Shown here: positions 24,741-54,760 of the stretch, piece after piece
How the letters are laid out: every line of letters starts with the position of its first letter
How positions within the stretch are numbered: position 1 is the first letter of the stretch
From: Spirogloea muscicola
Lineage: Eukaryota; Streptophyta; Zygnematophyceae; Spirogloeales; Spirogloeaceae
DNA: 64,000 nucleotides
Direction of reading: 5' to 3'
Assembly: GCA_009602725.1 (NCBI GenBank)
Contig: WELB01000004.1
Coordinates: forward strand, 766,164-830,163
Notes under the pieces: generated by a model
Database searches by the model: none
The model's input: the letters and a program-made list of their open reading frames with translations, nothing else
What the model was told of the DNA's origin: nothing
Program-made: the position numbers and the translations under genes

Positions 24741-25480
24741 TGGTGAGAAGGCCGCGTGCCGCCTCGGCTGCCCGGCGCCCTCCCCTTCGTGCTCACCGCT
24801 CTTAGGCCCCTCTGAACCTTTGTGAATTCTTTTTGGGCTGGCTTTTCGCAGCCCTTGCCCCCATTGGGAGTGGCACTTCTTTCGTAAGAGATGGGCTTGC
24901 CAGCTGCATATCTGTCGTTCTTGCGACGACTTATTTCGGCCTCTTTGCAGCGTGCTCCAGGCTTAATGCCTTGCACCAGAAAGCTGGGCGAGCTCTAGTT
25001 GGTGGCAGAAGGGCTTCGTATCTGACATCTAGTATTCATGCACCGATTAGCGACCTTTATGCTTTGACCCGTGGTTACTGAGCGGGTCAAACTGCTGAAG
25101 GTTATGTATGTAGGTCTACAGATGTGCTTGCCTTTGTACTTGGCCATTTGCCCAGGCATTTGTTTCAGATACACAAGATTCCTCTCTTCCGTCTCCCTTC
25201 ATTCATTCTTCTCGGTGCTGGCCAACCCAAGCCATCGCCCTCTACTGGAAAAGAGCCGTGATGTGCCTGCCCCTCGCAGGCTCGCCCCCCGCCCCCAGCC
25301 GCTGTCCTCGAGCTAGCTGTCCCCCAGCCGCTGTCCTTCAGCTATTCAGACTTGCATCTTCTGACTGAGAGTCCCCTTGCTGCTGTCTTAGTACTTGGCA
25401 CCCAGGATTCTTCTGTCCTTGTCCATTCCTTTCGGGCTGGCCTCTCCCAGCCACCAGTCAATCTGGCCGCGCTTGCTACC
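24741..25480 (+). mobile_element. LINE tails incl. family B copy with 9-bp stop hairpin
   Basis: A GGGCTGGCTTTTCGCAGCCC hairpin at 24836 is followed by a family B tail (LNALHQKAGRALVGGRRAS, then SDLYALTRGY and stop at 25081). The stop lies between arms TTTGACCCG (25063) and CGGGTCAAA (25083). UTR sequence continues to about 25200. A further tail of another family with hairpin GGGCTGGCCTCTCCCAGCC lies at 25330-25480, just upstream of the UBC24-like gene. Confidence 0.8.
25063..25091 (+). other. Stem-loop across LINE stop codon (9 bp)
   Basis: Arms TTTGACCCG and CGGGTCAAA pair perfectly around an 11-nt loop that holds the last codons and the TGA. The same position in other copies has GCTGACTCG/CGGGTCAGC. 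Confidence 0.75.
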
Positions 25481-25593
25481 TCGAGCGGCAGCAGTCGCGC
25501 TGTTTCATCGACACGGCAAGCACCGGCGGCCGCCGTCTCGCAGGCGCCCGCCGCCCCGCCGCCGCCCCAGCGCGCGCCCGCCGCTCCGCCCCN

Positions 25594-28500
25594 CCCGCGG
25601 ACCGGCCCCTGGCGGGGCGCAGCAGCAAGGACGTGGCGGTGTTCACGGACGACGTGGTGGCGCACCCCGACCACCCGCGGCGCCTGGGCATCGTGACGCG
25701 GGTGTTCGGCGACAGCGAGGGCGAGGAGAGCGAGGACGAGGAGGCCGGCGGCGAGGAGGACGACACTCCGCTGCCCGAGGGCCACGTGCGCATCTCCTGG
25801 CTCACCGGTGACGTGTGGGCCGACCACGTCCCGCGCGACAGCCTCCGCGTCCTCGACCGGTCCTTCCTGCACGGCGACATCGTCGCGTGGGCCCAGGATC
25901 CGCTGGGCATGATGGGCACCGTCGTGGCCGTGGAGCTCCGCGTGGAGCTGGAGCGGCCCGGCGGCGCCCGCGTGCCGGACGTGGACAGCCGGCTGCTCCG
26001 CCCGGTCCGGCCGCTGTGGCCCGGCCAGTACGTCGTCCACGGCTCCTGGCTGGGCCGCGTCGAGGACGTCCTGGACACTGTCACGGTGGCCTTCGACGAC
26101 GGCGCGCGCTGCCGGCTCCAGGACGTGGACGAGGAGCGGCTGGAGCCTGTCCAGCAGAGCCCGATCGACGACGAGAAGGAGTCGCCCTACTATCCCGGGC
26201 AGCGCGTGGAGGCCGACAGGTCGTCTCTGTATCGGGACGCTCAGTGGCTGCACGGAGCTTGGAAGACCCAGCGGAGGCAGGGCACCGTGGTCCAAGTCGA
26301 GGCGGGCACGGTGACGGTTTTCTGGCTCGCAGCTGGCGGGCCCAAGGGCACCCACCGACACGAGGCTCCTCCGGACGTGCCGGCCGAGCGCATGCAGGCC
26401 GAGGACCTTGTGCCCCTCATGTACTTCTACCACACCAACTGGGGCCTCGGCGACTACACCATGCCAATACCAGAGCCCGCCCCAGAAGCGCGTCCAGGGT
26501 CGGGCGAGGACGACTCGGACGGTGCTCCTGACGATGCCCCTGGTGAAGCCGCGGCACTGCAGCCAGCTGTCCCGAGGAAGAAGAGCAAGGCCCGCGCCAA
26601 GAAGCAGAGAAGGAGGGCACGCCGGAGGGAGGCAGAGGCTGAGCAGGCTCTCTTGATTGTTGGCACCCACACGAAAGTGGATGTGCGGTGGCAGGATGCC
26701 ACCTTGGTGAGTCACTGCATGCCACAACAAGAGCTGGTGTTATAGCTTGCTGGGTGCTTTGCAAGGCAGGTCGCACACTTGCTGCTGCCGCATTCTCTTC
26801 TTGGCCGAATCTCTTATTTGCAAGAAGAGCTCCTTGTCAGAGATATTTACTTGGCCGCTGCTTGTATCTTGGTCAACAGTCTCAGGGGGTGGAGGCCAGC
26901 AGCTTGGTACCCGTCAATCACCTGGGGGACCATGACTTCTGGCCAGACGAGTACGTCCTTCAGCGGACAGTGGGGGAGGAGGCTCAGCAGGAGCGTTTGA
27001 ATTCTCGAGCTGGCCTGGTGAAGAGCGTCGACTTCAAGCAAAGGACGGCTGTTGTGCAATGGTTGAAGCAGGTGCCCAGAAGAGCCCTGTTGTTGCCCGC
27101 CACTGTAAGCAGGATTGTCACTATGGTCAGTAGTAAGTGGTTAACCGCCCTGCCTCATCGGCCTCGTCTCGGCAGGTCAGTGAGCCTCATGAGAGCTTGG
27201 AGTTTGAGGAGGGGGAGCTCGTCTCTGTGTATGAGCTCCTTGAGCACCCAGACTACACATATCGTCTAGGAGACGTCGTCATTGGCCTCCGTTCTGCACC
27301 AGATGCTGAAAGCCAACCAGATCAAGCCCAACCTTTTGAAGCCCAACCAGATCAAGCCCAAGTCAACGTCGCCCAAGTTGATGACGTCGGTCAGACGGAG
27401 CCTAAGGTGGAAGAAGATGGGAGGAGCTCTGCAGTGATGGAGAAGGACCTCTCCTGGGTTGGCGAAATTGCAGGCCTAGAAGCAGGAGAAATCTTGGTTG
27501 CATGGGCTGATGGTGTTGTTTCCAAGGTCGGTCCAAGTGCACTCCCTTTTGCAGGCCTGTAACATGAAGCTGGAAACGACCAGTACATGGGGTGCTTAGT
27601 GAGTTGAATTTTTCGTAAAAAAGTCATGGCTGAAAGAGATTTCATATTATGACTGAGGATGCTTTCATCATCTGTTGCACAGGTCGGACCTCAAGCAATA
27701 TACGTTGTCAGCAGGGAGGATGACTATGGACCCAACGAAGCTGGAGATGACGCTGCGAGCTGGGAGACAACAGACTCCATGGCTGATCCTGCCGACAACG
27801 AAAGGGTGCGCAAAGGGATGTCGTTGATGTCTTGCATGACCAGGCCTAGCTCCAAGTGAAAATCTGGTACGGTTCTATTGCAACTGGAGATGATGGCAAG
27901 AGCAAGTGGAGTGACCCTTGTCTCTTGGGCATGTGCTATCAGAGGGTGGTCAGGGGTTGCTGCTCAGGCTCAGCCCATGTATGACACCTCTGATAGGGTA
28001 TATCAGCCCAAGTCTGACGGATGCGCAAAGCTGTTTTGATCAGTTGGACTTTCCTCACCCTTGTGTTCAGGAGGAACTCCACAGGATTGCCGATATGGAG
28101 GCCTTGCTAAATGGAGGTCATTCCACGATCGACAATCAGCAGCGGGCTGCAGGAGCTTTTGAAGCTCATGGCTCTCCGGATTCTGAGCCAAGTGCAGCGG
28201 GCATCTTCACCCCCTTGTCTCAAGCCACGATGGGGCTGGCTAGTAGGCTCGCTGGCCTTGCAGCTGGGCTGGTCAGGAAGGGGGAACAGCTGCCAGGCGC
28301 CAGATCGATGACGAGCCTGCCTCGCAGGTCCAGCCATGGACTGGAGGATCTTCTTACGCCTGATGAAGGGAATGGCCAATCAGAGTCCAGTCCCTCACTT
28401 CTTGTCAATCGGTCTGCACCGGTTGCAAAACACATGGTGGAAGGGGCTGTGTCTGCTTCTCGGATGAATGGCGGCCTAAGTCAGCAGCTTGCAGGTGCAC

Positions 28501-30423
28501 AAGATGCGGAGGAGGACTCAAGAACACAGCCAAGAGATGGTGCTGGTATTGATGACGTTACGGATAACAGTGGTGGGCAAGAAAACTGTGCGGAGTCTTC
28601 TGGCACAGGGCATGCAGAAGTTGGTCAATTGGCCAATGGAAGCTCAAGCTATGAGCACTTTGACATCGTGATAGATGCCTCTGATCATCACTATGTATCA
28701 AACGTTGGGCAGGTACGCACAGATTCCACCCTATTGTCCCACAGAGACAATGGTAATGGTTCATATGGACCACTATGACTTGGGCATCGCAATCGATCCT
28801 GGACTCAGTCCTGGCAACCTTGAAGTGTGCATTTCTAACAGCAGAGTGGTCCTCTTGATTTTGACTTGGTCTCAGATTACCCCAAGTCGCAAATGGTCAA
28901 AGAAGGTGCAGCAGGAGTGGGCGTCACTGCAGAACAGTCTCCCAGGTACTTAGTGCTGAATAGACTGCACATGCATTCTCATGTGGTTTGTGATTTCATC
29001 AAGTGATTAAGGCTGGTACCAGGGTTTAATTCTTGCTTGTCATTACTTACTCATCGACCTCCGTGCACAGCTTTGTGCACTAAGATGACCATCTTTGATG
29101 GTTGTGCCCTTGATTTTCCACAGAGAGTGTCTATGTCAGGGCTTATGAGGATCGCATGGATCTCCTGCGTGCTGTTATTGTGGGTGCACCAGGCACGCCA
29201 TATCACAATGGCCTCTTTGTGTTTGACATTTTCATTCCTCCAGATTATCCAGCTGTACCGCCTGTGAGTCTTGGCTTCTGTGTATATTGCTTCTCCATTG
29301 TATGCACAACGAGAAACCAGATGGAGTGCGCTGTTTGACAGGATCTCACAGCTTTCTCATTCATAGCAGTAGGTGGACCTTATTCTGCTTGCTAGCACTC
29401 TGATAAATCTCCAGGGAAAGCAAGTAGATTGAACTCATCTTTGTTGTTTTACAGGTTGTCTATTATCATTCCCGGGGGTTACGAATCAATCCCAATCTAT
29501 ATGAGGACGGCAAAGTTTGTCTGAGCCTATTGAACACATGGACTGGTAAAGGGACCGAAGTATGGGACCCTCAATCGTCAACAATTCTCCAGGTAGCTTT
29601 CTCTTATCTGGAACTTGGTCCTTTTGTTGATGTACATGTAGGGATGTGGGTGGAAGGCAGCACCACAAACGTAGAATCTTTTGAGGATCTTGCCAGTCAA
29701 TAATTAGTGTTTACTGGAGCAGATTGCCCAGTTACATCATGTCCACCTTAGCACAAGTTTCTGGTGGTGGTGGTGAGCACGAGTGACTCTGACAACAACT
29801 CTCACACCATTCGTGATGTTGTCATATCAGGTCCTTGTGTCCATTCAGGGCCTTGTTCTTGTGGCCAAGCCTTACTACAATGAGGCTGGATACGAAAAAC
29901 AGATGGGTAGCGAGGAAGGGGAGAGAAACTCTCTGATCTACAATGAGAGCGCTTTTCTTCTAACATGCCAGACCACGCTACATCTTCTTCAAAGCCCACC
30001 AAAGGTATACACAAGCTTACTCTTTTCTCTCTCTTTTGGCCCTTATTGCACAAGTACAGGGATGTTGGACTTGCTTGTCCTTGGCTTGTGGGCCTGCCAT
30101 GCATACAAGGAAGTAGACACTTCCTTCTGGATCTAAAAAGGCTTCTCAAGTCTCTGATCCTGATGATGGAGTGAGGACTCTGGAGCTGTTTTCCCACTTT
30201 GCAGCACGTCAGCGGATTGGTCAAGCAACACTTCGGAGAGAAGGCTCAGGATATATTGCGGAGCTGCGCTGTGATCTTGGGAGAGGAGGGCGGTGAGAGG
30301 GAAGACGGAGCTGGACCCAGCGAGAGCAGCTCAGCTGGCTTGAAAATTGTGCTGTCCAAGCTACGGTCCAAGCTTAGGGAAGCATTTGCAAGGTCCTTCT
30401 CCGATGAACCTTTGAGTTCTTGA
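25594..30423 (+). CDS. Large E2 ubiquitin-conjugating enzyme, PHO2/UBC24-UBE2O type (5' partial)
   Basis: Plant members (UBC24/PHO2, UBC23) are large E2 or E2/E3 hybrid enzymes; PHO2 controls phosphate transporters. Exons joining in frame: <25594-26706, 26880-27071, 27176-27526, 27683-27805, 28071-28712, about 28844-28945, 29124-29263, 29455-29592, 29831-30004, 30205-30423. The long N-terminal part holds repeated SH3-like Trp/Asp blocks (for example [20 protein letters not shown] and [16 protein letters not shown]), as in UBE2O. The UBC fold runs [75 protein letters not shown] (Cys nucleophile; the usual HPN is replaced as in this subgroup), then [20 protein letters not shown]. An unread base at 25593 hides the start. 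The frame just before KWSKKV is not clean, so an extra junction or an indel is possible. Which paralogue it matches cannot be said. Confidence 0.88.
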
Positions 30424-32230
30424 GAGCCAGGCAATGGCGGGACCAACTTCCTGGAGTGGTCTGACTGGCCCCGTCCAGCTTTATTCCATACTGGCTGTGC
30501 CCCTGACCGGGCATCTGCCTCAGGGTACAAAGCCCCACTGCTTGAAATGTTTATTGAAATTTCCAATATTCGCGCACTGCTTGCTCGCACTCAACTCCGT
30601 CGCTGCACTCTCGCCAAGCCTCTAGTTTGTCCTTACCGGCACGCTGCTTGCCCCTGCTGGACTCCTGGCTGCGCCTTCGCCTTCGATCAACATCGTCTTT
30701 ACACCTTTGCTGGACCTCCGGTTCGTTTTCACTTTCGCTTTTGATTGTCCACGACTACATCTCATTTTGCAGGCAAGTGCTACCATCTCTATAATGATTA
30801 TTCCTCGACATGGCTTCTTCCGGCCGCACTACGTCTGGCGGCTCTGTGTCCGGCGGCACTAATACTTCTAACGTGTCTGCGAATCTCGAAACTAGACAGG
30901 TTATGGGCCCACCAGGGGCGTTTGAGATTTTATCTCCAGCTGCGCTCGTCACCAGAATTTCTGGCGAAGCTTCTCAACCTGGCAATGGAAGATTTCAATG
31001 CATCTGCAGACTAGGAATTTGTTTGGCATAGTTGATGGAACAGATGCAGAACCTCTTCCGACGCATCAAGACTACTGTACTTGGGTAAGGGAAATTCAGC
31101 AGGTGATGGCTACGCTATCCCTTAATATTGACGATGGTCATCTGATCCACATCCAGAACCTTTCGACAGCCAAGCAGATGATGGACAACCTGAACGCAAT
31201 CTATGAAAATACATCAGGAGCTTCCAATAACCAAAATCAGGACTTGTCAACTGTACGACGATCAACTAGAACAAAAAACCTGTTGTCCACTTAGACAGAT
31301 TGCCAAGGTACTTTCTTCTTCTTCCAACGATAGTATTGATACACCTTGCAGCCTGCAAGCAGCTCTGAGTTCTGCACATACAGAATCAAGGAAGCAAGCA
31401 ATTGCTGACGAGATGAACTCGCTACTACAAAACACAACGTGGAAATTTAGAAACTTTACCTGCAGGAAGGAGGGCAATTGAACATAAGTGGGTCTTCAAG
31501 GTTGAGCAAAATGCTGATGGAGGAATAGACAAATACAAGGCCAGGTTGGTTGCAAATGGTTGTGAGGAAAAGGAAGACATCGATTTCAACGAAACCTTTG
31601 CTCCAACGTGGCCTTGCATTGGTCTACTCCTCCATCAGCATTCCGCTTATCGTTTGAAGACCCAAATGTTTCCAATTGCCCTCCTTCCTGCAGGTAGACT
31701 TTCTATTCTCCACATTTTGTTCTTTAGTAGCGAGTTCATCACGTCAGCAATTGCTTGCTTCCATTGTTCTGCATGTGCAGAATTCAGAGCTGCTTGCAAG
31801 CTGAAAGGTGTATCCATACTGTCGTTGGAAGAAGAAGAATATACCTCGGCAAGTTGTCCAAAGTGGACGACAGGTTTTCTTGTTCTAGTTGATCGTCGTA
31901 CAATAGATAAGTCCTGATTTTGATTATTGGAAGCTCGTGATATGTTGTCATAGATTGCATTCAGGTTGTTCCACATCTGCTTGGCTGTGGGAAGGTTCTG
32001 GATGTGGATCAAATGACCATCATCAATATTACGGGATAGCATAGCCATCACCTTCTGATTTCCCTTATCCAAGTATAGTAGTCCTGATGCGTCGGAAGAA
32101 GGTTCTGCATCTGGAGCGTCAAGCTCATGATGTTGCTGGCCACTTTCAAGCAGTTAATGAGGTGCTCATATGACGCCATCATGTGCCCTCCTGGGCACGT
32201 TGGCAGTTGACAGGATCCTCGTTCGCAAGT
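30424..32230. mobile_element. Fossil Ty1/copia LTR element, inverted-repeat arrangement
   Basis: Plus-strand Gag (UBN2-type) similarity starts near 30810, with a short piece of copia reverse transcriptase around 31380-31610. A second arm with the same parts lies on the minus strand (about 31650-32210), so the two arms face each other. Both arms look like the same shortened, broken form; they differ by scattered changes, which suggests moderate age. LTRs are not identified. The left side, 30424-30800, is non-coding sequence after the E2 gene and may hold leader sequence. Confidence 0.8.
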
Positions 32231-32800
32231 CAGTGAAACAAGTAAAGGCCTCTACCCTGATCTACAATGCGATGGATGAGTAGCTCTGTGTGCAAGAAGG
32301 GCGACGAAGTCTGGAAGTTTGCGTCATGGCAAGCACTGCTTCACAAGAGAACACGCAGCTCCTAGGAAAGAACAAGCGCGGCCAGATTGACTGGTGGCTG
32401 GGAGAGGCCAGCCCAATCAAATGGACAAGGTCTGAAGAAGCCGGAGTGCTAAGGACAAAGACATCAGCAACAAGACTCTCAGTAACCTCTCGTCGGGGGC
32501 GAGCGCTGTGAGGAGGCCAGCCCGAAACAGAGTTGACGAGAAGAAAGAAAGGGCTCGCCCATTGAGGATAGGGGCTGGGAAAGCCAGCCCAAGAAAGAAT
32601 GAACAAAGTACGAGAAGGAGAGCAAGTGGCTTCTCTCCCGAAGAGAGAGAGAAGGCGCGCGGGGCGCATGAATTGAAAGGGAGGCCAATTCAAGCCAATA
32701 CATTGTTCAGGCGAAGGAAAACGTGTGCTTGAGAGAAACAAAGGCCAAATGGCTAAGTACATAGGAGGCAAGCACATTTGAAGACCTGAAGGGGGCAAGG
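32231..32800 (-). mobile_element. LINE 3'-UTR pieces upstream of the JmjC gene
   Basis: Minus-strand hairpin copies near 32395, 32535 and 32575, and a family C 3' end near 32660-32710, where TGAATTG and CAATTCA form a hairpin. A partial family B UTR lies at 32740-32780. No gene is seen; the long minus-strand open frame across 32.3-33.3 kb is an artefact of GC-rich DNA. Confidence 0.75.
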
Positions 32801-32871
32801 GCGTCTGGGCTCCCTCACGGCAGCACGGCAGCTCCGCCTGCGGGCCTGACCCGTGGAGGCGGCAGGCCGCC

Positions 32872-36385: not shown

Positions 36386-36416
<31 letters not shown>

Positions 36417-37500: not shown

Positions 37501-38270
37501 TCCACATTGGAGTTCTCTCTTTGCTTGTCGATTGCCGTCCGGTATTCGAGCATCAGTTAGCGACCTCTATGTGCTGACTCGTGGTTACTGAGCGGGTCAG
37601 CTTAGCAGCAGGTGACGTACATTGGTCAATGTGCTTGCCTTGGTACTTGGCCACACATGGCCTCCCCATCTCTCAATACACACGCATTCTCTTTCTGGGC
37701 TGGCATTCCACAGCCCTGTGCGATCCCTGCGAACCATGTCTCCAGGGGCTATCGCGTCGAGCGGTACTCTGGCATCGTGGACAGCAGGGAGAGCAGGCCG
37801 GCTACAATGCGCCTGGTCGCTCGCTCGGGTGTACCGAAACAGCTCTTGCACTCCACTCCAGGGTTCCTAGGCATTTGATGTGCATTTGCAGACAGGCAGT
37901 GCCTTGGCTGCTGCTTCTGGGTTTCGGCGTGTGACTCTTTTCTGGCTCTTTTGTTGGCTAGCCTTTCACAGCCCTCGTCCCTTTGGAAGAGCTGCTTCTC
38001 TCATTTTGGCTACAAAATAGTCCAATCTGCGGCTGTTGACTAGAAGTCACTGAGCACCCATTCAACGAAGCTTCTAGCACGATACGTTCATTCGGGCCTC
38101 TTTGGACCTTGTCCATTGCTTCTGGGATGGCCTTTCACAGCAATCACCAGCTCAGCAGGAGCTTCTGCGCATGCCGTTTGAAAGTGCCTCTTCTCTCTTG
38201 TGGTGATCGCAATGCCTTTCTACACGTACTCAATTCGGCATTGTCCACGAGGCTGGGTACCATCAGCTGA
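37501..38270 (+). mobile_element. LINE family B tail and A-like UTR pieces
   Basis: RLPSGIRASVSDLYVLTRGY and stop at 37591, then the family B UTR (GACGTACATTGGTCAATGTG). Arms GCTGACTCG (37573) and CGGGTCAGC (37593) flank the stop. Downstream are two more diverged tails with hairpins at about 37698 and 37950. Confidence 0.82.
37573..37601 (+). other. Stem-loop across LINE stop codon
   Basis: GCTGACTCG pairs with CGGGTCAGC (one T-G wobble). Compared with 25063-25091, an outer T-A pair is replaced by C-G and the next by G-C, which keeps pairing. Confidence 0.75.
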
Positions 38271-38279
38271 TGACGGTGT

Positions 38280-38835
38280 CAGGTCTTGGTCGATGTGATT
38301 GTGACGGAGGCGAACAAGAGTCCAGCATCGACCCACATTGCTGGCCACGCAGTGGGAAGTGCAGAGCAGAGGGAGCCGCAGTACTACTCTTGACTAACCC
38401 CGCAGTGATCACCTCCTACCAGCCGCAGTTGACACTTTAGCTGTATGGGTCCTCGTATCCATACCCTACTTGAGAATATTGCAGGTCTAGGGTATGCACG
38501 ACGTCAGGATATACTTCCAGCCCAGATGGGCATGGCAGCAGCCCATTTGTCATTTTTGCGATGTCGTGCGTCAGCCTGCTTGCAGCGACTTCCGGCTCAT
38601 GCTTTGCACCAGAAAGCTGGTCGAGCATTAGCTGGTGGCCCAAGAGCTCGTCAATTGCCTTCCAATATTTGGGTATCACTTCGCGACTCTATGTGCTGAC
38701 TCGTGGTTACTGAGCGGGTCAGCTTAGCAGCAGGTGATGTACATCTGTCAATGTGCTTGCCTTTGTACTTGGCCACTCAGGCCCTCCATCACTGAACACA
38801 CACTCCGATCTCCTTTTGGATAACACAATTCACCA
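38280..38835 (+). mobile_element. LINE family B 3' fragment
   Basis: Starts in the endonuclease region (LVDVIVTEANKSPASTHIAG-like), continues as MGPRIHTLLENIAGLGYARR and ALHQKAGRALAGG, and ends near 38711 with the stop hairpin GCTGACTCG/CGGGTCAGC followed by the family B UTR. It contains interruptions and is homologous to about 55.98-56.4 and 58.43-58.76 kb. Confidence 0.85.
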
Positions 38836-38839
38836 CCCG

Positions 38840-39320: not shown

Positions 39321-39329
39321 CCCCCGGCC

Positions 39330-40830
39330 CCTTTGGAAGAAGTGGCGCTCCCAATGGGGGCAAGGGCTGTGAAAAGCCAGCCCGAAAAGAATCGACAAAG
39401 TTTCGAAGGGGCCAAACGATGGAGGAGCCAAACAGCGCTTGGCAGCTACGAAGGGGCCTGAAGATGCTATGTCAGAACGGGGGGAGGATGGACCACTCAG
39501 TAGTTACGAGTGAGGAGCCTCAAATCCGACAGACTAGCTGCCGGATAACAATCCCCCTGACAAAAGCCGGAAGCCGCAGCGAGAGCACGGCCAGCACGCA
39601 GATGCAAGGCGTGGGCCATGGACCGCTGGAGGGAGACTGACAATCGCATGCGATATATTTGGGCCCACGAGCCAGCGGCGTTGAAGTCAGCCGGCTCACC
39701 GCGCCTGCGGGACACAGCGCGCCGTGCAAGCCTGGCCAACAGGTCGAGCCAGCGGGACCCGAGAGCCCCGTGCACGTCCACAGCCAGGGGGACGAACTCA
39801 TCTCCAGCCGGGTGGTCGGCGTATTTGGCCGCCTTGCTGCGAGCAGTCTTCGCCGCAGCGTGGCCAGCCCGCGAGGCAGAGAGCCCCGGGTTGGAGCGGT
39901 CGACCACATCAGTGGTGACCACATCCGCAATGATGCACGCACTGCCGCCCGGCGTGGACGCCGCCAGGTCGACGCGGCGCGTGTGGAGTCCGGCGGCCCT
40001 CTGGAGGATTGGCATGACCGAAGTATTCTCCATTGCCACCGTGTATCCGGCCTCCTGGAAGCTGCCGAACATTGCATCGCGGAGGAGGTCGTGAGCAGCT
40101 GTACGTTCGCCTCCAGTGGCGCAGCGGAGGATATGGGCCGCCAGCTCCGCCGGGTCTGGCGACCGCTTCCCACACTCACACTGCAGCACGCCAAGCAGAC
40201 AGGGCGGGGGGAGACCCAACAGGCGATGGGTGGCCGTACGGAAGAGTTCATCCGGCATCCCGAGGGCATCGTATAGGGGGAGCGCGGAAAGCCAGGCAGC
40301 CGCGCCAAGGGAGGCGGCCGACAGCAGCTGAGCATGGCCGCGCACGTCTGTTGGACGGAGGAGCTGCAGCGTGGCCGTGAAGGACGCCGTGTCGACTGCC
40401 GCCATGTACAGCACATGCGCTTGCGGGTCGGTGGAGTGGGCAAGGTGGGCAAACGGGACCACGCTCTCTGCGAGGGCAGGGTGCTCCGCTAGTAACTCGT
40501 CTTGAGCTGAGCGGAGCGCCACCTTCAAAGGCAACGAGCCGGTCGCCACCTCCGCCACAGCCTGCTGCAACATGTGCCGCCCATCATGGAGAAAGCGCTG
40601 TGCCACCGACGTGGCGACCCGAGCGCAACTGCCGAGGAATGCGGGCCTGCAGATGCGAGCGAGCGAGCGGCAGCCGAGGCTGCCATGGCCGGGGGGCAGA
40701 GTGACCTAGTGCGCCGTAGCTGGCGTGTCGAGGAAGCCCGTGTGGCGGATGAGGGCCGCCACGCACTCCGTGACGCCCGCGTTGAACGTGGTGTAGGCCT
40801 CCAGCGCCTCGGAGCAGTAAATATATAAGC
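39330..40830 (-). mobile_element. LINE family A' C-terminal half
   Basis: A minus-strand open frame (40606-39497, 369 codons) encodes the C-terminal third: YDALGMPDELFRTATHRLLG, CECGKRSPDPAELAAHILRC, then AGLHTRRVDLAAST and IIADVVTTDVVDRS (PD-(D/E)XK-like), ARSKAAKYADHPAGDEF, PLAVDVHGALGSRWLDLLAR and SDLRLLTRNY with stop. Similarity continues upstream to about 40820 in another frame. The 3' UTR with its hairpin runs to about 39330. Residues are close to those of the 952-codon copy at 51.9-54.8 kb but clearly another subfamily. Confidence 0.9.
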
Positions 40831-41460: not shown

Positions 41461-41918
41461 GTGCCAACTAACCGGGCCAGAGCCGGGCTGAAGCGAGCTC
41501 GTCCAAACCTTCTCCTTGTCGGCCCCTCCGCCACCTGGCCCCTTCGAGCCTGTGTCAATTCTCGTCGGGCTGGCTTGTCGCAGCCCCTGCCCCCATTGGG
41601 AGTGCCACTTCTTCTGCTTTTCACAGCCCTTGCCCCCCTTCTCTGTCGGATCTGAGGCTCCTCACTCGTACTTATTGAGTGATCCATCCTCCCCCTGTTT
41701 TACCATTGCATCCTCAGGCCCCTTTGTAGCTGCTCACCGCTCTTAGGCCCCTCTGAACCTTTGTGCATTCTTTTTGGGCTGGCTTTTCGCAGCCCCCTTC
41801 TCGTACTCTGTTCATTCTTTTTCGGGCTGGTTGTTCCAGCCCCTATTCTCAATGGGCGAGCACTTTCTTCTTTTTTCGCAGCCCTTGCCCCCATTGGGAG
41901 TGCCACTTACTTCCCCTT
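41461..41918 (+). mobile_element. LINE A' tails with repeated 3' hairpins
   Basis: SDLRLLTRTY and stop near 41679, with TCACTC (41662) and GAGTGA (41677) pairing around the stop. Hairpins GGGCTGG/CAGCCC lie near 41571, 41778 and 41826, the last followed by CAATGGGCGAGCACTTTCTT. At least three partial tails follow one another. Confidence 0.82.
41662..41682 (+). other. Stem-loop across LINE stop codon (family A')
   Basis: Arms TCACTC and GAGTGA pair perfectly around a 9-nt loop. The sequence differs from the family B stem but lies at the same stop codon. The same pairing is seen at about 24015 and, on the minus strand, at about 51470 and 39500. Confidence 0.75.
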
Positions 41919-42390: not shown

Positions 42391-42467
42391 GCGGGCCTCG
42401 GCGTGGCGCGGCGACACGGCCAGGCAAGCCGGCGCTGCCGCAGGAGCGGGGCCCCCGCCGCCGCCGC

Positions 42468-45400: not shown

Positions 45401-48400
45401 GCGCAAGGCCAGTTCCAGTGGCTCCAAATGCCGAAAGGTGCACATGGAGGCAATGGGGAGAAGGGGATGGCACTTGCAAGCACAGTATCTCCGCCTGTTG
45501 CTTCACCAAGTATGGTCATCAAGGAGGCTCAAGAGAGGGCAATAGTAACACCATCAGGACTACAGGATACTGCACTTGGTTTGGCTGACCCTATTACAAC
45601 CAAGAGGCCTGAGAGTCAAGTGGAAGGGGAAGAAAGCACTCAGCCAAGAAATATCAAGCAGTTCAGTCACACATGGCAGAGCCGACTGCCTTCCTTTCCA
45701 TCCTATGTACCCTTTGGACAGGTGAGCCTACTACTTGCACCGGTCGTTTTGTGGCAGAATAAGCTTTTGCAACTTTGCTGAGACGTTCTCTTGCGAGAAC
45801 CTTTGAGACTTGCTGACCTTACGCAGAAAGGCAAGCACGACAGCTTGAAAGTTTCATGTCAACTAGATCTGATCATTCCTGTTCGCTTCTGGGTTAATTT
45901 GACACTTGTAGCTCTATCTCCTCCACCCAAAGACCGCTGAACGCCTATCGGCGACTGAGTTTACGCGACTTTCAACGGTAAGTGTCGTTACTACAATGAT
46001 GACACAGATCTCGTCAGGTCAGTAGGATAGCCAGTAGGACACGGCAGTGCAGCATGTAAGCTGGTTGGCAATGGCCTGGCAGCTGTTATGCACATCATGG
46101 ATTGGCTGGTGCCATATGCAACATGGCATGACTGGCAGTACTTTTGCATGCAGATGCAATCGTTTTTGACGGAGTTGAGGGAGCGCTTTGCTTCTCACAC
46201 AATGAGTTCCTATCGTGCTCGTTTTCAAAAGTAAGTCCGATTTGCAAGGGTGCTGGTTACAATTGGTTCCCTAGACAGCCTGTGGCTAGAGTGTTTGTGG
46301 CACATGGCTCATCAGAAGTCCTCCGAAAAAGGACGAGAGGCAAGATGAGCAACTGTGCATGGACTCCCCTGACATTATTCCCCGGGAGGTGGAGTACTGT
46401 ATCAGTGTACATCTTACCTCTGAGGTGGAGTACTGTATCAGTGCACCTCTTACCTTTGAGGCATAAGTTGTTGCCCACCCTGTCCTCTGCCAGAATGTAC
46501 GAGATGCACATGGCTGAGGACGGCATGGCTTTGCCGGTGGCCATCAAGGAGAACTTTCCAGGCATCTACGAATGGATGACAGGCATACGCATGCCTCCAG
46601 TGGTAGCTGGTCAGCTAGCAGAGGGGTTGAAGATACGCGCAGCAACGTCAGTGGTGCCGATTGGTTGGACAGGAGTTCCAGCAGAGAATGGATCAGATCC
46701 TATCAAAGTAGACGTCCAGGGCAGGGGCCTGCACTTGTGCTCCCTCGTCAGGGCATGCGTAAATGGTCGCTGGTGAGGCGCGGAGGCCGCACGCTTTTAG
46801 CAATACTTTGGATGCTTCGATGGGTCCGCTTGTCCTCGGAAACTCTTTGTCTAGCAATGTGCCTCGGCTGTTTATAAGTTGCATGTCGTTGCTTTAGCAG
46901 GTGCTCCACCATGTTGGACATACCAGCCAATCCACCACCCATTCACAAGGACCTGCCATCAAGCAATCCTCAGCCTCTGCAGACAATGCGACTCCAGATT
47001 GGGCCTCCCTTACGGCGTGCTCCTCCAGCGCAAGCAGAGGAGGAACGTGAGCTGGAGGAGACATTTGATGGCATGTTGACTGACGTGCCCTCGCTCTCAA
47101 GCACTGAGGGCGCACGTGGCTGGTTCAATCTCCTGCGAGCAGCTCCTAGACAAGGAACTGGGAATCGTGGTCAGATTCAAGCCTTGGATGCGCCTAGCTT
47201 GCCAAAGAGCTCAGACGGAGCACAACGTGATGGGCAGCATGTGTCGAGGGTGAGATGGAGAGACTTATTTGCCAGGCTCAGGGGCAAAGCTTCAATGGGC
47301 TCGGGCCCCTCAGGCGAGCTGGTAGACAGGGCCGAGGAGCCGGAGTTGCCACTGCATGCCCAGCTTGGATTTGGGGATGACGAAGCTGCTGCTGAAGTCA
47401 TTATTCATTGCAGTTCTGATTTTATAGATGACTCCCACGCTGTTGCCATGCGCCTACGCCGGATCCGCTTATTGGGCTTGGAGGTCAGTAGTTGTGTGCT
47501 AGCATTTCAATCTGGTGCAGGTGTGCTGTGATATGTGGAATGCTAGTTGTGTTTGCCAGTACTAAGTAGGCATTTGAGTGCCTCTTTCAGGGTGCAGGAA
47601 AGACTTCGCTATACTGTGCCTTGCTGGGGCAGGAAGGGGGAGCCACTGTTAGCTCGATCGATAGTGGTGTGCTACCTGATATGGATTGGCGAGAGGGTGT
47701 CTCTGCTGGTGTTGATTACGTGGATGGCTTTGGTGTCAACCTCCAGGTGCACTGGGTGTGTGTGTTCGTTAGGCTGCACCTCTGTAGGAACCATTTAGAG
47801 GGTGCTCTTGCAAGTTGTAGAGACTTTGTCAATCAATCTCTGAGGTTGTGAGTGTGCTTTTGCTACTTGGAATGACAGGACCTCGCTGGAGAGGCCTTCC
47901 ACTTGCGACAGGAGCTGTCGCGAAAGGCGGGAATGCTAGGGAGGAGGGTGGACCTTGTTGTTCTTGTGCACAATCTTGCGCACAAAATTCCAATGCTTCG
48001 TCGTACCTCCGATACAAGTTTTCACGATCCCCCAGCGAGTGACTCAGGCCAGTCAAGGCCGGCTCTGTCAGTGCTTTTAGATGAGGTGACTGCAGCTGGC
48101 GTGCCAGTGCTATTGGCTATCACAAACAAATCTGCTGCAAGCGCAGACCGACGACAACAAGCAGTCAATTCTGTTGAGAATACATACGGGTAAAGTCGCA
48201 TGCTGAATGACAGCTTTGTCATATGCCTAGGAGCATGACGAGGCGAGCATCTTTGGTCAATTCAAAATGCAACTGCATGACAAGCTCGCTGAAGCTTGCA
48301 ACTCATGAGCTTCTGCAGGCTCCCCTTCTGTGACAGGTTCCCGAGGACGTCAGCGGCTGTGGTCAATTCCTGTCCATATAGTGTTTACGGAACAGGCAAG

Positions 48401-48897
48401 GATAGTGGAACAGCTGGCAGTGCACAGGTGCACGGGCTGCAAGGAACAGCCTCATTGCTGATGCATGCTCCAACTTATCTAGTTCAACTTCCATTCCGGA
48501 GAAGGGAAGCACTGCTTCCAGTGGAAGGGGTGCAGGAGCTTCAGCACATGGTGCACAATGTGCTTCGTGAGGCTGAGGAGGAAGCTTTGCAGGTTCGTGT
48601 TAGTCCACTTGGTATCCACAGGAGTATAGATGCTAAATGCTTTTGGTCAGCTCAAGTGTTCTGATCGTGCACCCTCATTGGGCAGTGCAATAAGTTGTGG
48701 GTAGGAATGTGTCGCAGGGAGTGGCTAAGGCAGCCATGGAGAGGCACACTGCGGTGGAGGCAGACATGGCGCTGAGGGAGGGGCGGGGCAACAAGCCAGC
48801 CCTTGCAGCAGCTGCCGTAGGTGCAGCTGTAGGAGCTGGTTTAGGTGTGATGGCAGCAATCTTTGCGAGCACCGCATCTGTCTTCAGAAGGCCATAA
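42468..48897 (+). CDS. Class 3 lipase fused to a GTPase-like P-loop domain
   Basis: Similar to plant alpha/beta-hydrolase lipase_3 proteins that also carry a P-loop domain. The start may be the ATG at 42468 (MRLPAWLP), then a gap. Exons include 43014-43126 (RLRALCDAVKADSVSDLEDI), 43434-43543 (NRFKADFGGDLVKLETVQ), 43670-43732 (YVLAVAGDTLFATFVGTKHY), about 43973-44089 (DYMADANVLQDTLPFESDEY), 44509-44611 (LVLCGHSLGGA, nucleophile Ser), 44793-44921 (KCITFSQPPVGNAALRE), about 45070-45720 (HKRGWQRYFRSYCIPEDIVP), 45911-45979, 46153-46230, about 46490-46773, 46902-47482, 47591-47746 and 47879-48190, about 48340-48592, 48718-48897. GLEGAGKTSLY (Walker A, split by an intron), VDLVVLVHNLAHKIP and AITNKS give a G-domain-like fold. 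A Gly/Ala-rich hydrophobic helix near the end may insert in a membrane. The intron after 43543 seems to start with GC. Confidence 0.85.
42493..42822. other. Assembly gap (run of N)
   Basis: Run of about 330 N within the first part of the lipase gene. Open frames crossing it are not informative. Confidence 1.
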
Positions 48898-50130
48898 TTC
48901 TCATGCAAATTTTTGAGATAGTAGTATGTAACACCCATTCTTCAGAGCATATCATGAATATAATTCTGCAATTATGTGCACGTGTACTCGATGCTCAGCT
49001 AGAGAGTACATCCTCTCAATGTATGATGATCACATGGACACCTCCTTTTCTTGGACTTGGACATAGTGTGCCTCTTGTGCCGGCCTTTCAGACACCGTTG
49101 TTGGCTTCTGCTATACTCCTGCGTACGAAAATCTATCTTTGTGCTAGTGCCTGTTGACAGCTTCCAAATTAGTGAGTTGACAGCAGGGGGGCCATGAATG
49201 ACCACTATAAGCATTTGCACTGCTGTTCACTCTAAGAGTCTCTTCTTAAGAGTGAACCACTCTTCTGTGTCACCACCATGGGTGGTTGACTTGGGCAAGG
49301 GGTTCTAAGCACGTCCATGTGACTCAAGCAATTATGATGGAGAAATACTTCAGCATCTTGCAGTGTAGGTGCATGACTTCTGAGCTGCCTGTGCGCTGGG
49401 AGTCTGCCTGCAAGAGCGAGGAGAGGTGGAGCGCGACTTGCTGCAACTCGTAGAAAGGGGTGCTGACATTGGAGTGGACAAGATGCAGCTCCGTGGGACT
49501 CTGACTCTGGTCGCAGCCCTTGGGAGGGGCTCAGTGCTCCTGCAGCTTGCACCAATGGAGTCAGCTGACGCAAGGGTGACTGCCACGCGCCAGCAGCCGA
49601 TGACTGAGCACAGGGCGGAGCAGCACGGAGCTTGGTGCTGCAGATCGCACACACCCTCCAGCTGTCATCATCTGACAAGACAGAAGGACCTTGTGGCCGG
49701 CTGATCACTGCATGACTGGTTGCTGCATTGAGCCTGACTGGAGGAACGGAGAGGAAGGAAGGGCAGCCATGTGGCCCTGTGAGAGAACGTCCCACTCGGA
49801 GTACAGGGAGCTGGCAGTCAAGGGGATCCGAGAGAGCCTGGAGTTCCAGGCGGAGGGGAGAGGCAAGAGGGCGACCAACCTCGGCGTGGTGGTCGCTGTG
49901 CCCGTGATCGCCCCCATGGTGACCCTCCCAGGGATGCCTCCAGCCCTGCGAGCGGCGCCAGCCGAGAGCTCAGCCGCAGAGCGCTGCCGGGTGACCTGCT
50001 GAGCGGACGAGGTCCACGGAGTCGATGCCCTCCACAGTGGGCGATCAGCGCAGGCTCGGCTTCCAGCCCGGCGCCAAGTGAACGTTGGGGCCGGGGGAGA
50101 GGGGAGCAGCGGAGGGCGGCCGTGCAGCGC
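48898..50130. other. Intergenic, no gene identified
   Basis: Contains several short open frames on both strands, for example a plus-strand stretch at 49426-49700 and a GC-rich one at 49740-50000. None shows a family motif or convincing splice structure. The right end may hold the last exon or 3' UTR of the NDUFB2-like gene. Confidence 0.4.
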
Positions 50131-50134
50131 TCAC

Positions 50135-50393
50135 CAGCAGCACGGGCATGTCCTGCTTGGCGCGGTACAGCACCCAGAACCTGGCAGAGGCGCGCGGGCG
50201 GGAGCATGGAGTGTGTAGTGAGCGACGGAGGGCCCGAGGGGCCGAGTGCAGCGGCAAGCGCAGGAGCGGCGGGCGCGGGCGCGCACCACATGGTGGCGCA
50301 CATGCCGGAGCCGACGAGGACGTGCCACCGCTTGGGCGCGTGCAGCGTCAGCCCGGCGTACGTCTGCCCGTGCGCGCCGCCGCCGCCGGCCAT
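50135..50393 (-). CDS. Complex I subunit NDUFB2-like (3' end unresolved)
   Basis: Small accessory subunit of mitochondrial NADH dehydrogenase. Exon 1 50393-50287 reads MAGGGGAHGQTYAGLTLHAP then KRWHVLVGSGMCATMW; exon 2 50180-50135 reads FWVLYRAKQDMPVLL, joined in frame across a GT-AG intron. The order AHG, YxGLTLHxPxRWH, MCAxMWFW.LYRAKQD is that of plant NDUFB2. The His-rich C-terminal exon expected in plants was not located with confidence below 50.1 kb. Confidence 0.75.
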
Positions 50394-50479
50394 GGCGGCC
50401 TGGCTTCGAGGGTCCCGAGAGGAGGGGGTCTCGACGGCGAGGCTCGCGAGCTTGAGAGGGAGGATGAGGTCTTGCCAGT

Positions 50480-50628
50480 TCCTGGGACCCACTTCCAGGA
50501 CCCTAGCCTCTCTGATTTGCGGCTGCTTAGCAGGGGTTACTGAGTAATTTGTAGCTGCTTTCTTTCTTTGTGTGCTTTGGTTTCTTAGCGCTTCCTCTGG
50601 CTTCCTCTGGCCCCCTTCTCGATGCAGA
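50480..50628 (+). mobile_element. LINE tail, near-identical to 24.5 kb copy
   Basis: HFQDPSLSDLRLLSRGY and stop at 50543, then the same UTR as 24583-24660 (GTAATTTGTAGCTGCTTTCT, then CTTCCTCTGGCCCCCTTCTC). It breaks off at 50628 where a minus-strand family A tail begins, just upstream of the NDUFB2-like start. Confidence 0.88.
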
Positions 50629-51180
50629 TGGCTGCTCAGTATCCACGTGTGAGCAATAGCAGATCAGAGTAACTCGGAGCAGGAGAAGCGGCACTGTGCC
50701 GAGACCCGGAAGTAGCAGCCATTTTTCGGGTTGGCTGGCTGTCCGCAGCCCTTGCCCCCCTTTGGATGAGCTGTGGGTACATTTCCCGTCACAAAGGCCA
50801 GCCCGGAAAGTGATGGACAAGCCTGAGCCTCAGCCCGAGCACCGAGCCGCCAAGCCCGGAAACGCGAAACGAGAAATGCGGAAGTGCGGAACGCGACACA
50901 TGCCCCCATTGGGAGTGCCACTTCTTCGAACGCGACACACGCAGAACGCCAGCCCAAAGAGAGAAGGCGCGCGGGGCGCATGAATTGAAAGGGAGGCCAA
51001 TTCAAGCCAATACATTGTTCAGGCAGAGTCGAGTGCAGACTAAACAAGGCTACATAATACGCCAGCCCAAAAGGGGACGAGGGCTGTGAGAAGCGCAAGC
51101 CCGCCGCCTCGGCTCGTGGGCCACAGGCGTGGCGCGGCTTGGTGGCCCTCTTTCTTTTGGCTTTGGACATAGTCCATTCT
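50629..51180 (-). mobile_element. LINE family A and C tails
   Basis: 50629-50725 is the antisense of the family A C-terminus (compare 54667-54770). A plus-strand hairpin piece lies near 50735. 50950-51050 is a minus-strand family C 3' end (TGAATTG...CAATTCA, then AATACATTGTTCAGGCAGAG). About 51060-51100 is another minus-strand hairpin. Confidence 0.8.
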
Positions 51181-51840
51181 TTGTGGGCTGGCTTTTGCCA
51201 GCTCCTCTTCTTTCTTCACATTACCGGCACATTACCGGGCTATTCGGCGCACCCAGAGCCAACACCCAGACCTCCTCTTCCCCTCCTACGCCGATGATAC
51301 ACACATCATTAGGAGAAGTGGTACTCCCAATGGGGGCAAGGGCTGCGAAAAGCCAGCCCAAAAGAATTGACAAAGGTTCGAAGGGGCTTAAGAGCGTTGA
51401 GCAGCTACAAAGGAGCCTGAGGATGCGATGGGAAAAACAGGGGGAGGATGGATCACTCAGTATTACGAGTGAGGAGCCTCAGATCCGACAGACTAGCTGC
51501 CGGGAAGCTATCACCCTGACGAAAGCCAGAGGCCGCAGCAAGAGCACGGCCAGCACGCAGATGCAGAGCGTGAGCCATGGACCGCTGGAGGGACATCATT
51601 GGACCCAATGAACCCTACACCCCCAGCTGCCTCCGGCTTTCGTGGCGGCGCTCCAGCTCCCCAAGTTAGCTTGTCAGATTTGTTTGTGCTCACCCGTGGG
51701 TACTAATGTCATCTTAGGTACCTTAGATTAGGTCTCCGTATTATGTAGCCTTGTTTAGTCTGCACTCGACTCTGCCTGAACAATGTATTGGCTTGAATTG
51801 GCCTCCCTTTCAATTCATGCGCCCCGCGCGCATTCTCTCA
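51181..51840. mobile_element. Mosaic of LINE pieces incl. RT motif and family C tail
   Basis: 51255-51312 (+) reads HPDLLFPSYADDTHII, an RT catalytic-motif scrap from another subfamily. 51320-51600 (-) is an A' tail with hairpin (near 51345) and stop stem TCACTC...GAGTGA. 51610-51840 (+) is a family C tail (SLSDLFVLTRGY, stop at 51705) with its complete 3' UTR and TTGAATTGG...CAATTCA hairpin. Confidence 0.82.
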
Positions 51841-51898
51841 GCTGAAGTCATGGCGGCTTACCCCTTGCTCGTTCGCGAATTGGACCTGATGGGCCTTC

Positions 51899-54757
51899 GT
51901 GTTTGCCCGTCCAAGAGCGTGGCCTGGTCCCCACGCGGTCTCCCCGCCACCCTTCCGAGACCATCGGGACGAGGCGGCCTGGAAGCTCTTCCTCCTCTTC
52001 CCCCGGCTGCTGCTTGGGCGCGTCCCCCACGACGGCCGCTGGCAGGGCCGGCAGCCCCTCCTGGAGCGCGTCCAGCTGTTCGAGAGCGGCCATTGGGAGG
52101 AGCTCCTCGAGCGCCACAACGCAGCCGTGGCAGCCTTGGCAGCAAACCGAGGTGATGAGCGGGCATCGCCCGACAGGGCCGCCAACATCCGCCGGGCATT
52201 GCGCTTCGGTCATGCGGGCGAGTTGTCCAGGGCGGTCCAGGCCCTGGACGACTCGGTGCTGGCGCCAACCACCGCAGCAACACGGGCGGCCCTGGAGTCC
52301 CTGCACCCTGAGGCCCGCTCCCCCCTGCCTCCGTGGCTGGCCACCTTCGCCCCGCCGGAGGAGGTGGCCCTCGACGCCGACGCTCTTCGACAGGCTTTGC
52401 AGAGCAGCCGCCGCGCAGCCGCTGGAGGTCCGTCACACATGCTCACCGAGCATCTCCGCGAACTCTTCCTGGAGGGAGAATCAAGTGACTTTCAGTCGCT
52501 TCACCAGGTGTGCCAGCTCCTTGCTCGCGACCAGGTCCCGGCCAGCATCCGCGACGTCATCTGCACCAGCACGCTGCTGGCCCTCAGCAAGGCCAATGGG
52601 GGGGTCAGGCCCATTGCCGTTGGCGAAGTGCTCTACCGCCTGGTGGGGCGCGCGCTATGGCAACAGCACGCGGGGCTGGCCCAGGAACACCTGGCGCCCC
52701 ACCAATTCGGTGCGGGGCTGCGGAGCGGCGGCGAGGTGGTCGTGCATGGCGTAAGGGCCGCCTTGGACTTGAACCCCGGGTGGATGGCCTTGGCAGTAGA
52801 TGTCCAGAATGCGTTTAACAGCGCAGACCGGGATGTCATCGCTGAGGAGCTGAGGGCGGCCTTCCCCAGCCTCCTCCCCTTCTTCAGGCTGGGATATGGT
52901 CAGCCAAGCGACCTGCTGTGGCGGACAGGGCATGGGGCGGTGGAAGTCCTCCTTTCCTCCACGGGCGCACGCCAAGGAGATCCGCTGGCTGGCCTCTACT
53001 ACGCACTGGCTCACAACCGTGCACTGCTGGCCACGGTCGCGGCTCACCCGGGCGTCCACGCCCCCACGTACGCCGACGATACAACGCTGGTGGGGCCGCC
53101 AGAGGACGTCGTGGCAGCCTTTGACACCTTCAAAGTGCAGCTGGGCGCGATCGGCTTGGGCATCCGCGCAGCCAAGTGCAGCGCTTGGTCTCCCCAGGGC
53201 CTGCCAGCCCTCCTGCGCCTGCCCTCGGGCTGTCAGACACCAGCTGGGGGCTTCATCCTCCTCGGCGCCCCCATAGGCTCCCCAGCCTTTGTGGTGGAGC
53301 AGCTCCAGGCTCGACTGCAGGAGCACCTCCGGCCGGCGGACCGCCTCCACATGCTGCAAGACATGCAGCTGGCGACCGCCATGCTGACCAGGTGCATTGC
53401 CCACCGTCCGCACTACCTGGCCCGCGTCCTCCCTCCCTCCCCGGCGGTGAAGGCGGCGTACGCGGCTTTTGACTCCGGCGTTCTGGCGAGCGCGGCCTCT
53501 CTCCTGCAACACCCCGGCTTCCTCACCACACCAGCCGCGATGCTCCAGGCCAGCCTGCCTGTCAGTCGTGGCGGTCTGGGCTGCCGCCCAGTCGCCCGCG
53601 TTTGCGAGGCCGCCTACCTGGGCAGCTGGGCCCAGGTCGCCGCACCCATCAGCCGGCGGTTCCAAGCGCACGGCATCCGCACCATGGAGCGGGTGGTAGC
53701 TGAAGTGGAGAGCGGCTCGTTGCCTTTCCAGGCTGCTCTCCGCGCTGCCCGCGACGCGCTCCTGGCGGCCCACCCCGACATGTCGAAGCAGGTCGTCCCG
53801 TTCATCCACCTTGCGCACACCCCCGACCTGCGGGCCCAGGCCCGCTACACTGCGCTGGTGGACAAAGCGGCCTACGACCAGTTGGTGGAGCTCCTTCCGC
53901 CGCACGACACCCGAGGGCGCGCCCGGCTCCTCTCCGCCTCCTCCCCTGGGGCGGCGGCGTGGCTAGCAGCACTCCCCATCTACGCGGCGCTGACTATTCC
54001 AGACGCGGTATTCAGGACGGCGGCCCACCGGCTCCTCGGCCTCCTCCCTCCCTGCCTCATCGGGGTCCAACAGTGCGAGTGCGGTGCCCGCCACGATGAC
54101 CCTGCGGCGTTGGCGGCCCACATGCTCCGCTGTGCACACGGGGGCGAGCGGACAGGTTCGCACGACCTCCTGCGAGACGCCATGCAGGGTGTGTTCCTGG
54201 AGGCCGGCTACAAGGTGGCAGTGGAGAACTCCACGATAATGCCCATCCTGCGGGGCGCCGATGGACAGCTTCACACCCGCCGCGCGGACCTCGTTGCCAT
54301 CCCGCCCGGAGGAGGTCCGCGCATCATCGCTGATGTGGTAACTGCCGATTGCGTTGATTCGGCCAACCCCGCGAGGTCCGCGACGCTCGTCGGGCACGCG
54401 GTCGCTCTGGCGGCTCGGAGTAAGGAGCGCAAGTACTCTGACCACCCTCCAGGCGATGCCTTCGCGGCACTGGCCATTGACGTACACGGGGCATTTGGCA
54501 GTGGCTGGTTGGATCTCCTCCAGCGGCTTGCCCGGGAGGCCATCGAGCGGCGGCAGGGTTCGCCAGGCTTCAATGCTGCCGGCTCCCTCTCGCAGGTCTT
54601 TCGGATGAGGCTGGCGGTCTCGCTGCAGCGCTCTTTGGCTCATGCGGTCCACGCGCGGGCTGGCCGTGCTATGGCTGCTGCTTCCGGGTCTCGGCAAAGT
54701 GCCGCTTCTCCTGCTCCGAGTTACTCTGATCTGCTGTTGCTCACACGTGGATACTGA
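51899..54757 (+). CDS. LINE ORF: reverse transcriptase + restriction-like endonuclease
   Basis: Single open frame of 952 codons with no stops. A segment of about 170 residues before RT begins FRDHRDEAAWKLFLLFPRLL. RT motifs: GGVRPIAVGEVLYRLVGRAL, LAVDVQNAFNSADRD (motif A), GARQGDPLAGLYYALAHN (B), APTYADDTTLV (C, YADD near residue 391), ILLGAPIG (E). Then VSRGGLGCRP, a Cys/His motif CECGARHDDPAALAAHMLRC near residue 726, and PD-(D/E)XK-like RRADLVAIPPGGG, RIIADVVTAD and ARSKERKYSDH. It ends SYSDLLLLTRGY. This order (RT, Cys/His, endonuclease) is that of R2-like RLE LINEs. No N-terminal zinc-finger or Myb domain is present. The annotated Met is simply the first in frame and may not be the element's start. 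Confidence 0.9.
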   Translation: MFARPRAWPGPHAVSPPPFRDHRDEAAWKLFLLFPRLLLGRVPHDGRWQGRQPLLERVQLFESGHWEELLERHNAAVAALAANRGDERASPDRAANIRRALRFGHAGELSRAVQALDDSVLAPTTAATRAALESLHPEARSPLPPWLATFAPPEEVALDADALRQALQSSRRAAAGGPSHMLTEHLRELFLEGESSDFQSLHQVCQLLARDQVPASIRDVICTSTLLALSKANGGVRPIAVGEVLYRLVGRALWQQHAGLAQEHLAPHQFGAGLRSGGEVVVHGVRAALDLNPGWMALAVDVQNAFNSADRDVIAEELRAAFPSLLPFFRLGYGQPSDLLWRTGHGAVEVLLSSTGARQGDPLAGLYYALAHNRALLATVAAHPGVHAPTYADDTTLVGPPEDVVAAFDTFKVQLGAIGLGIRAAKCSAWSPQGLPALLRLPSGCQTPAGGFILLGAPIGSPAFVVEQLQARLQEHLRPADRLHMLQDMQLATAMLTRCIAHRPHYLARVLPPSPAVKAAYAAFDSGVLASAASLLQHPGFLTTPAAMLQASLPVSRGGLGCRPVARVCEAAYLGSWAQVAAPISRRFQAHGIRTMERVVAEVESGSLPFQAALRAARDALLAAHPDMSKQVVPFIHLAHTPDLRAQARYTALVDKAAYDQLVELLPPHDTRGRARLLSASSPGAAAWLAALPIYAALTIPDAVFRTAAHRLLGLLPPCLIGVQQCECGARHDDPAALAAHMLRCAHGGERTGSHDLLRDAMQGVFLEAGYKVAVENSTIMPILRGADGQLHTRRADLVAIPPGGGPRIIADVVTADCVDSANPARSATLVGHAVALAARSKERKYSDHPPGDAFAALAIDVHGAFGSGWLDLLQRLAREAIERRQGSPGFNAAGSLSQVFRMRLAVSLQRSLAHAVHARAGRAMAAASGSRQSAASPAPSYSDLLLLTRGY

Positions 54758-54760
54758 GCA
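54738..54760 (+). other. Stem-loop across LINE stop codon (family A)
   Basis: TGCTCA pairs with TGAGCA; the 3' arm includes the stop TGA. The loop is CACGTGGATAC. The stem is unlike those of families A' and B but lies at the same place. Confidence 0.65.

Follow-up and report, generated by a model that had tools for sequence, protein, structure and literature searches.

One probable stem-loop and one common protein ending at the 3' ends of LINEs in Spirogloea muscicola

Hairpins at the 3' ends of long interspersed nuclear elements (LINEs), including those of plant L1, are believed to act as recognition sites in reverse transcription and have conserved flanking bases, as reviewed by Ohshima (PMC3747384). 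Position-specific stem-loops in the 3' untranslated region (UTR) and near the end of the open reading frame (ORF) are described in PMC5135761 for a LINE of a different type. In this work, LINE tails were studied in 64,000 nucleotides of Spirogloea muscicola DNA (contig WELB01000004.1, positions 766,164 to 830,163; hereafter, the window), for which a sequence-only reading had proposed that a stem-loop spans the stop codon of several LINE families, with arms that change together. In the reading that we favour, and regard as probable, two things had been merged: a common protein ending, accompanied by hairpins of differing register, and, in one set of LINEs (B), one real stem-loop of the LINE 3'-end RNA. 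Outside B, and perhaps A', the hairpins that can be drawn are mostly as expected for the base composition.

Judged from its sequence, the B element is most likely a real RNA hairpin with a 7-bp core (TGACYCG/CGGGTCA; 9 bp in B1) and the stop codon in its loop, and it has the appearance of a usual component of a retrotransposon 3' end. As computed, it is short, stable (B2a being weaker) and conserved near the LINE 3' end, in which it resembles the stringent-type LINE 3' stem-loops covered by PMC3747384. The plant L1 hairpin is reported there to have compensatory changes and variable stem bases, whereas the core stem of B is nearly invariant and its 5' arm is coding. The LINE of PMC5135761 resembles B in the position of its stem-loops and differs in that the B stem brackets the stop codon and that the LINE type is another one, no APE match having been obtained in the two LINE frames tested here. 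No paper on the B stop hairpin was found in the open literature searched.

LINE copies are numerous in the window, and mostly decayed or 5'-truncated. Further copies were sought in a single genome (153 Mb, 471 contigs). The group names are convenience labels: A1-A4, A5 (the A' of the sequence-only reading), A6, A7, H, B1 and B2a-d. The arms that had been reported are present in the window, some of them displaced by 1-4 bases, and four further B copies were added to those listed before. The B copies are as follows.

37573..37601, plus strand: B1 stop hairpin, 5' arm GCTGACTCG at 37573-37581 (the ORF end) and 3' arm CGGGTCAGC at 37593-37601
38695..38723, plus strand: decayed copy of the B1 stop hairpin GCTGACTCG/CGGGTCAGC
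58743..58771, plus strand: B1 stop hairpin GCTGACTCG/CGGGTCAGC, closing the open B C-terminal frame 58366-58761
22413..22441, minus strand: B1 stop hairpin, not listed before
25063..25091, plus strand: B2 stop hairpin TTTGACCCG/CGGGTCAAA
41942..41968, plus strand: B2 stop hairpin TTGACCCG/CGGGTCAA
42206..42232, plus strand: B2 stop hairpin, core TGACCCG/CGGGTCA with an outer T-G, not listed before
24272..24298, minus strand: B2c stop hairpin, core pairs, not listed before
56393: B tail, not listed before
23687..23717, plus strand: decayed B1-like copy, AGCTGAC/GTCAGCT at 23687/23711, stop TAA

A B-like coding end, CTGACTCGTGGTTACTGA, was also seen at 58250, where GCCAGCG follows in place of the usual CGGGTCA arm.

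The likeness between families lies in the protein. LINE ORFs that carry the reported arms at their 3' ends encode proteins ending in SD..LTRGY-stop or a close variant, and it is because of this common motif that their last codons are alike across families. The LTRGY C-terminus is invariant across three aligned LINE proteins, two of them sharing 43 and 45% identity with the remaining one, which is the first of the alignment; other groups have variant endings, among them LTRNY, LTRTY, LSRGY and LTRGF. The loop reported as CGTGG.TAC.GAG is indeed kept in most of the listed copies; as a sequence, however, it is the codon string R-G-Y-stop-G, with synonymous variation between families. Since the ending L-[TS]-R-[GN]-Y-stop is spelled by 41 different 18-mers among 107 distinct tails, the loop is kept as protein. 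A strict 18-mer pattern of this ending has 4438 matches in the genome, versus 3 for the reversed control.

Under this common motif the hairpins are drawn in different registers. In B, TGACYCG pairs with a CGGGTCA that lies wholly 3' of the stop, so that the stop codon is in the loop; in A5, TCACTC pairs with GAGTGA; in A1, TGCTCA pairs with the stop TGA and the following GCA. The copies of the latter two are listed here.

41662..41682, plus strand: A' (A5) TCACTC/GAGTGA
24018..24038, plus strand: A' (A5) TCACTC/GAGTGA
51453..51472, minus strand: A' (A5) TCACTC/GAGTGA, loop shorter by one base
54738..54760, plus strand: A1 TGCTCA/TGAGCA, 3' arm starting at the stop TGA, no better than background

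Because the registers differ, the A, A' and B hairpins are not homologous pairs, and the apparent covariation across families arises from comparing hairpins of different registers under one protein motif. The proposal that pairing is kept across families while the bases differ thus loses its ground, and within B the core shows no two-sided change either. This negative part matters in its own right, as it traces an apparent covariation across LINE families to a register mismatch.

The behaviour of the arms within B was followed in 90 tails that match the stop region (at most 4 mismatches) and a UTR block, a choice that favours intact arms. The alignment holds 80 of them; rows containing N, duplicates over 131 nt, rows extending beyond their locus and the inserted copy at 23694 were removed (the decayed B1-like copy at 23687..23717 was excluded because of its long insertion). 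The B1 copy at 37573..37601 is part of the alignment, and several of its rows are decayed copies, including the B1 copy at 38695..38723. On these 80 tails and 167 columns, RNAalifold, one of the checks that had been suggested with the sequence-only reading, predicts a single helix, made of six of the seven core pairs and one inner pair, in which two-sided change occurs in 0 of the seven pairs and covariation accounts for -0.32 of the -11.94 kcal/mol. None of the seven core pairs of B changes on both sides. Among the nine pairs drawn originally, 2 are invariant, 2 vary at just one of their bases, 3 have unpaired cells as their sole departure and 2 show two-sided change. These last lie outside the core: the first outer pair is C-G in 23 cells, U-A in 23, U-G in 1 and unpaired in 31 of 78, and the outermost is G-C in 23, A-U in 5, G-U in 1, U-A in 1 and unpaired in 49 of 79.

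The even division of the first outer pair between C-G and U-A is what would be expected if selection on pairing maintained a conserved, covarying stop-codon stem-loop in these LINE families, and several cell-level measures in B agree with it. Two-sided change is seen in 29 cells, where shuffles average 7.3, and the covariation score reaches 0.101 as compared with 0.085 (in both cases 0 of 500 shuffles as high); 87.5% of cells are paired, compared with 86.5% (a level attained by 2 of 500); and the structure outscores its own slid versions. Related sequences, however, exceed shuffles even without structure. Six haplotypes cover 67 of the 80 rows, so that the B signal is essentially one split, B1 versus part of B2, and B2a (U-C) and B2c (U-U) are unpaired at the first outer pair. 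Pairs that change on both sides (2 versus 1.6 in shuffles) and pair types (7 versus 7.1) show no enrichment. An intact-core pattern of 35 places, whose last fixed base excludes B2b- and B2c-type tails, has 788 copies in the genome; among the matches listed (one row of which is decayed), the outer 5' T occurs in 17 and stands opposite A in 7, C in 7, G in 2 and T in 1. In A', 15 copies, chosen by a pattern that fixes some of the arm bases, show no two-sided change across six pairs, and several A families have no hairpin in the energy test described below. The covariation tests that were run in this one genome thus point to no covariation, against the claim that the arms change together, and we consider a covarying stem-loop common to these families very improbable.

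What remains is whether the B hairpin is more than its composition would give. The energy score was that of the lowest-energy structure in which the final 30 coding bases pair with the stop and 22 UTR bases; for this and the swap test the stop was placed in the 3' part, its placement in the 5' part being unsuited to the A register. The sample comprised 22 representatives of nine related groups, and p values carry no multiple-testing correction. Under a combined null of synonymous codons and dinucleotide-shuffled UTRs (1000 draws), p was 0.009 for B1, 0.011 for B2b, 0.004 for B2c and 0.011 for B2d. As a second null, 4000 random 55-nt windows were taken from the window and from loci L001-L068 and matched by GC content; the B energies were reached by 11 of 1222 of them for B1, 3 of 793 for B2b, 6 of 1220 for B2c and 6 of 1091 for B2d, so that the 7-bp core hairpin of four of the five B subfamilies is more stable than about 99% of GC-matched windows. 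In all five, none of 17 foreign UTRs gave an energy as low as that of the own UTR. The B hairpin is unusual against both nulls, with B2a weaker (47 of 951 GC-matched windows reach its energy).

Other groups behave differently. A5 is equivocal, being strong under the combined null (0.002 for each of A5a and A5b) and ordinary against GC-matched windows (127 of 1220 and 159 of 1220 reaching its energy). A1, the family at 54738, is at background (p = 0.226; 376 of 1290 windows; 6 of 21 foreign UTRs equal to or better than its own), as are most other groups. H2 had p = 0.033 and H1 0.062, A2b (0.049) was the sole one below 0.05 among the 12 representatives of A2, A3, A4, A6 and A7, and the representatives beyond A1, A2b, A5, B and H ranged from 0.085 to 0.935.

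The non-coding side of the B stem is conserved. Between the B1 and B2 consensus sequences, the 3' arm GCGGGTCA is identical at 8 of 8 positions and a second UTR block, GTGCTTGCCTTTGTACTTGG, at 20 of 20, compared with 18 of 32 in the stretch that follows and 16 of 33 in the tail; given the identity of 0.56 in the neighbouring stretch, the chance of 8 of 8 is about 0.01. In 42 B loci chosen by protein similarity, GCGGGTCA is exact in 38 and one base different in 4, and the 5' core is intact in all 42. In the genome, GAGCGGGTCA has 3908 matches, versus 347 for its reversed control. The earlier idea of an RNA structure at the stop is upheld in part: it is plausible in B, by the energies against two nulls, the conserved 3' arm and the sole predicted helix, while its central argument, covariation, does not stand.

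Several points weigh against a real B hairpin. The B2a subfamily reached only p = 0.096 under the combined null, the codon usage in the nulls was pooled from the 22 ends only, and the 8-base block was picked after the fact. Of the five B subfamilies, the four that belong to B2 are mutually non-independent, in a test of nine groups. With the B1 UTR, 4 of 17 foreign coding ends equal B1's own, so that the B UTR may simply be sticky; with the B2a UTR, 1 of 17 equals B2a's own. The 3' arm could also be conserved as a sequence, its complementarity to the L-T-R codons being coincidental, and invariant pairs cannot discriminate between the two.

In its full form, this last account holds that the L-T-R codons fix the 5' arm, that GCGGGTCA is kept for sequence-specific binding of reverse transcriptase (RT) or a host factor, and that the complementarity has no function. 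It fits the largely coding bases of the 5' arm and the B core pairs, which are invariant, change on one side or depart only through unpaired cells, and one group at p of about 0.01 is unsurprising among nine tested. By energy, however, four of five B subfamilies are equalled by just 0.4-0.9% of the GC-matched windows. Of the one-sided changes in B, the two that are common, ACT/ACC and CGT/CGC, retain pairing with G, though other causes restricting these positions to Y would also fit. Taken together, we regard a functionless complementarity as rather unlikely, yet of some weight.

The copies themselves bear on the importance of the hairpin. A sample of 44 exact UTR sites took in every listed match on C1 and those on C2 as far as 709688. 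Of these sites, 31 are preceded by GAGCGGGTCA, 4 have the 5' arm with an altered 3' arm, 1 shows a mutated hairpin and 8 lack the hairpin. The hairpin may hence be dispensable, which also tells against the favoured reading, since these 8 copies include L160 and L166, which carry a common other sequence in its place; the other six resemble ordinary 5' truncations. In L160 (C1:161275-161373, plus strand) and L166 (C1:1793857-1793955, minus strand), a palindromic non-B head of about 31 nt (GCAGCTCCARGAGCTGC...) is fused to the B tail at an identical position, and the stop hairpin is missing; these two copies, the only ones seen, are possibly a short non-autonomous element that uses the B tail. 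The idea that truncations falling within the hairpin are under-represented among copies, suggested by the few of 32 non-seed UTR sites that seemed shorter than the hairpin, was considered and dropped after the 44-site count.

The location of the stop codon, within the loop in B or opening the 3' arm in A1, would suit a hairpin that modulates termination or readthrough. Such a role is made less likely by the stops TAA or TAG in some LINE families and by the lack of a post-stop frame, and hence of any extension, common to B1 and B2. A readthrough extension was rejected on these frames: a further stop follows after 7 codons in B1 and after 11 in B2a, B2b and B2d. B2c tails (e.g., L134), alone among the B subfamilies, have a frame open past the stop through the 90 bases read, which is probably chance. 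A translation signal appears very improbable to us.

Under the favoured reading, in which B carries a real 3'-end stem-loop, the 5' arm would be fixed mainly by the protein and the 3' arm would be the conserved block right after the stop. The B RNA is predicted to fold into the hairpin, which, together with the second UTR block, would form the 3'-end RNA bound by RT to start target-primed reverse transcription. By analogy with the LINE 3' stem-loops of PMC5135761 and PMC3747384, the B hairpin is perhaps recognised by RT. More tentatively, the coding end of B LINEs may double as an arm of an RNA signal for reverse transcription, with the stop in a loop that the enzyme reads and two jobs constraining the same codons; we hold this to be possible rather than probable. 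If the B hairpin is an RT recognition signal, one set of bases serves both as the coding end and as the signal for retrotransposition. Natural variants are plentiful because the genome contains thousands of tails.

R2-type LINEs have a restriction-like endonuclease and one long frame with the RT in its middle. The present LINEs resemble them in a single long frame, a mid-frame RT, the lack of an APE match and a C-x-C...H...C motif, and differ in that the A1 frame has no match among solved structures. The RT domain PF00078 was matched with Pfam in A1, B and A7 LINE frames. For the APE endonuclease, two frames only, L129 (1267 aa) and L130 (1434 aa), were searched, with no Pfam match at E up to 1; each of these stretches has a single frame of at least 300 aa among the frames listed. 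The C-x-C...H...C motif was noted by eye in the protein alignment, ahead of an acidic C-terminal region, and residues resembling a C-terminal PD-(D/E)xK endonuclease were noted by eye only, a profile search giving no match. The following LINE frames in the window show the common ending.

51890..54757, plus strand: A1 LINE frame, 955 aa stop to stop, RT PF00078, ending in SYSDLLLLTRGY-stop
58366..58761, plus strand: B LINE C-terminal frame, ending in SASDLYVLTRGY-stop
39497..40705, minus strand: A' LINE C-terminal frame, ending in SLSDLRLLTRNY-stop

Two observations concern the A groups. The TAA stop of A6 tails such as that of L115 lies within GGTACTAAtgtcatcTTAGGTACC, which resembles a bulged hairpin, but A6a is at background (p = 0.609). 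A hairpin GGGCTGG-N5-CCAGCCC and its variants recur in A-type tails, at about 41565-41845 of the window and at other loci, as a candidate 3' stem-loop of the A groups' own.

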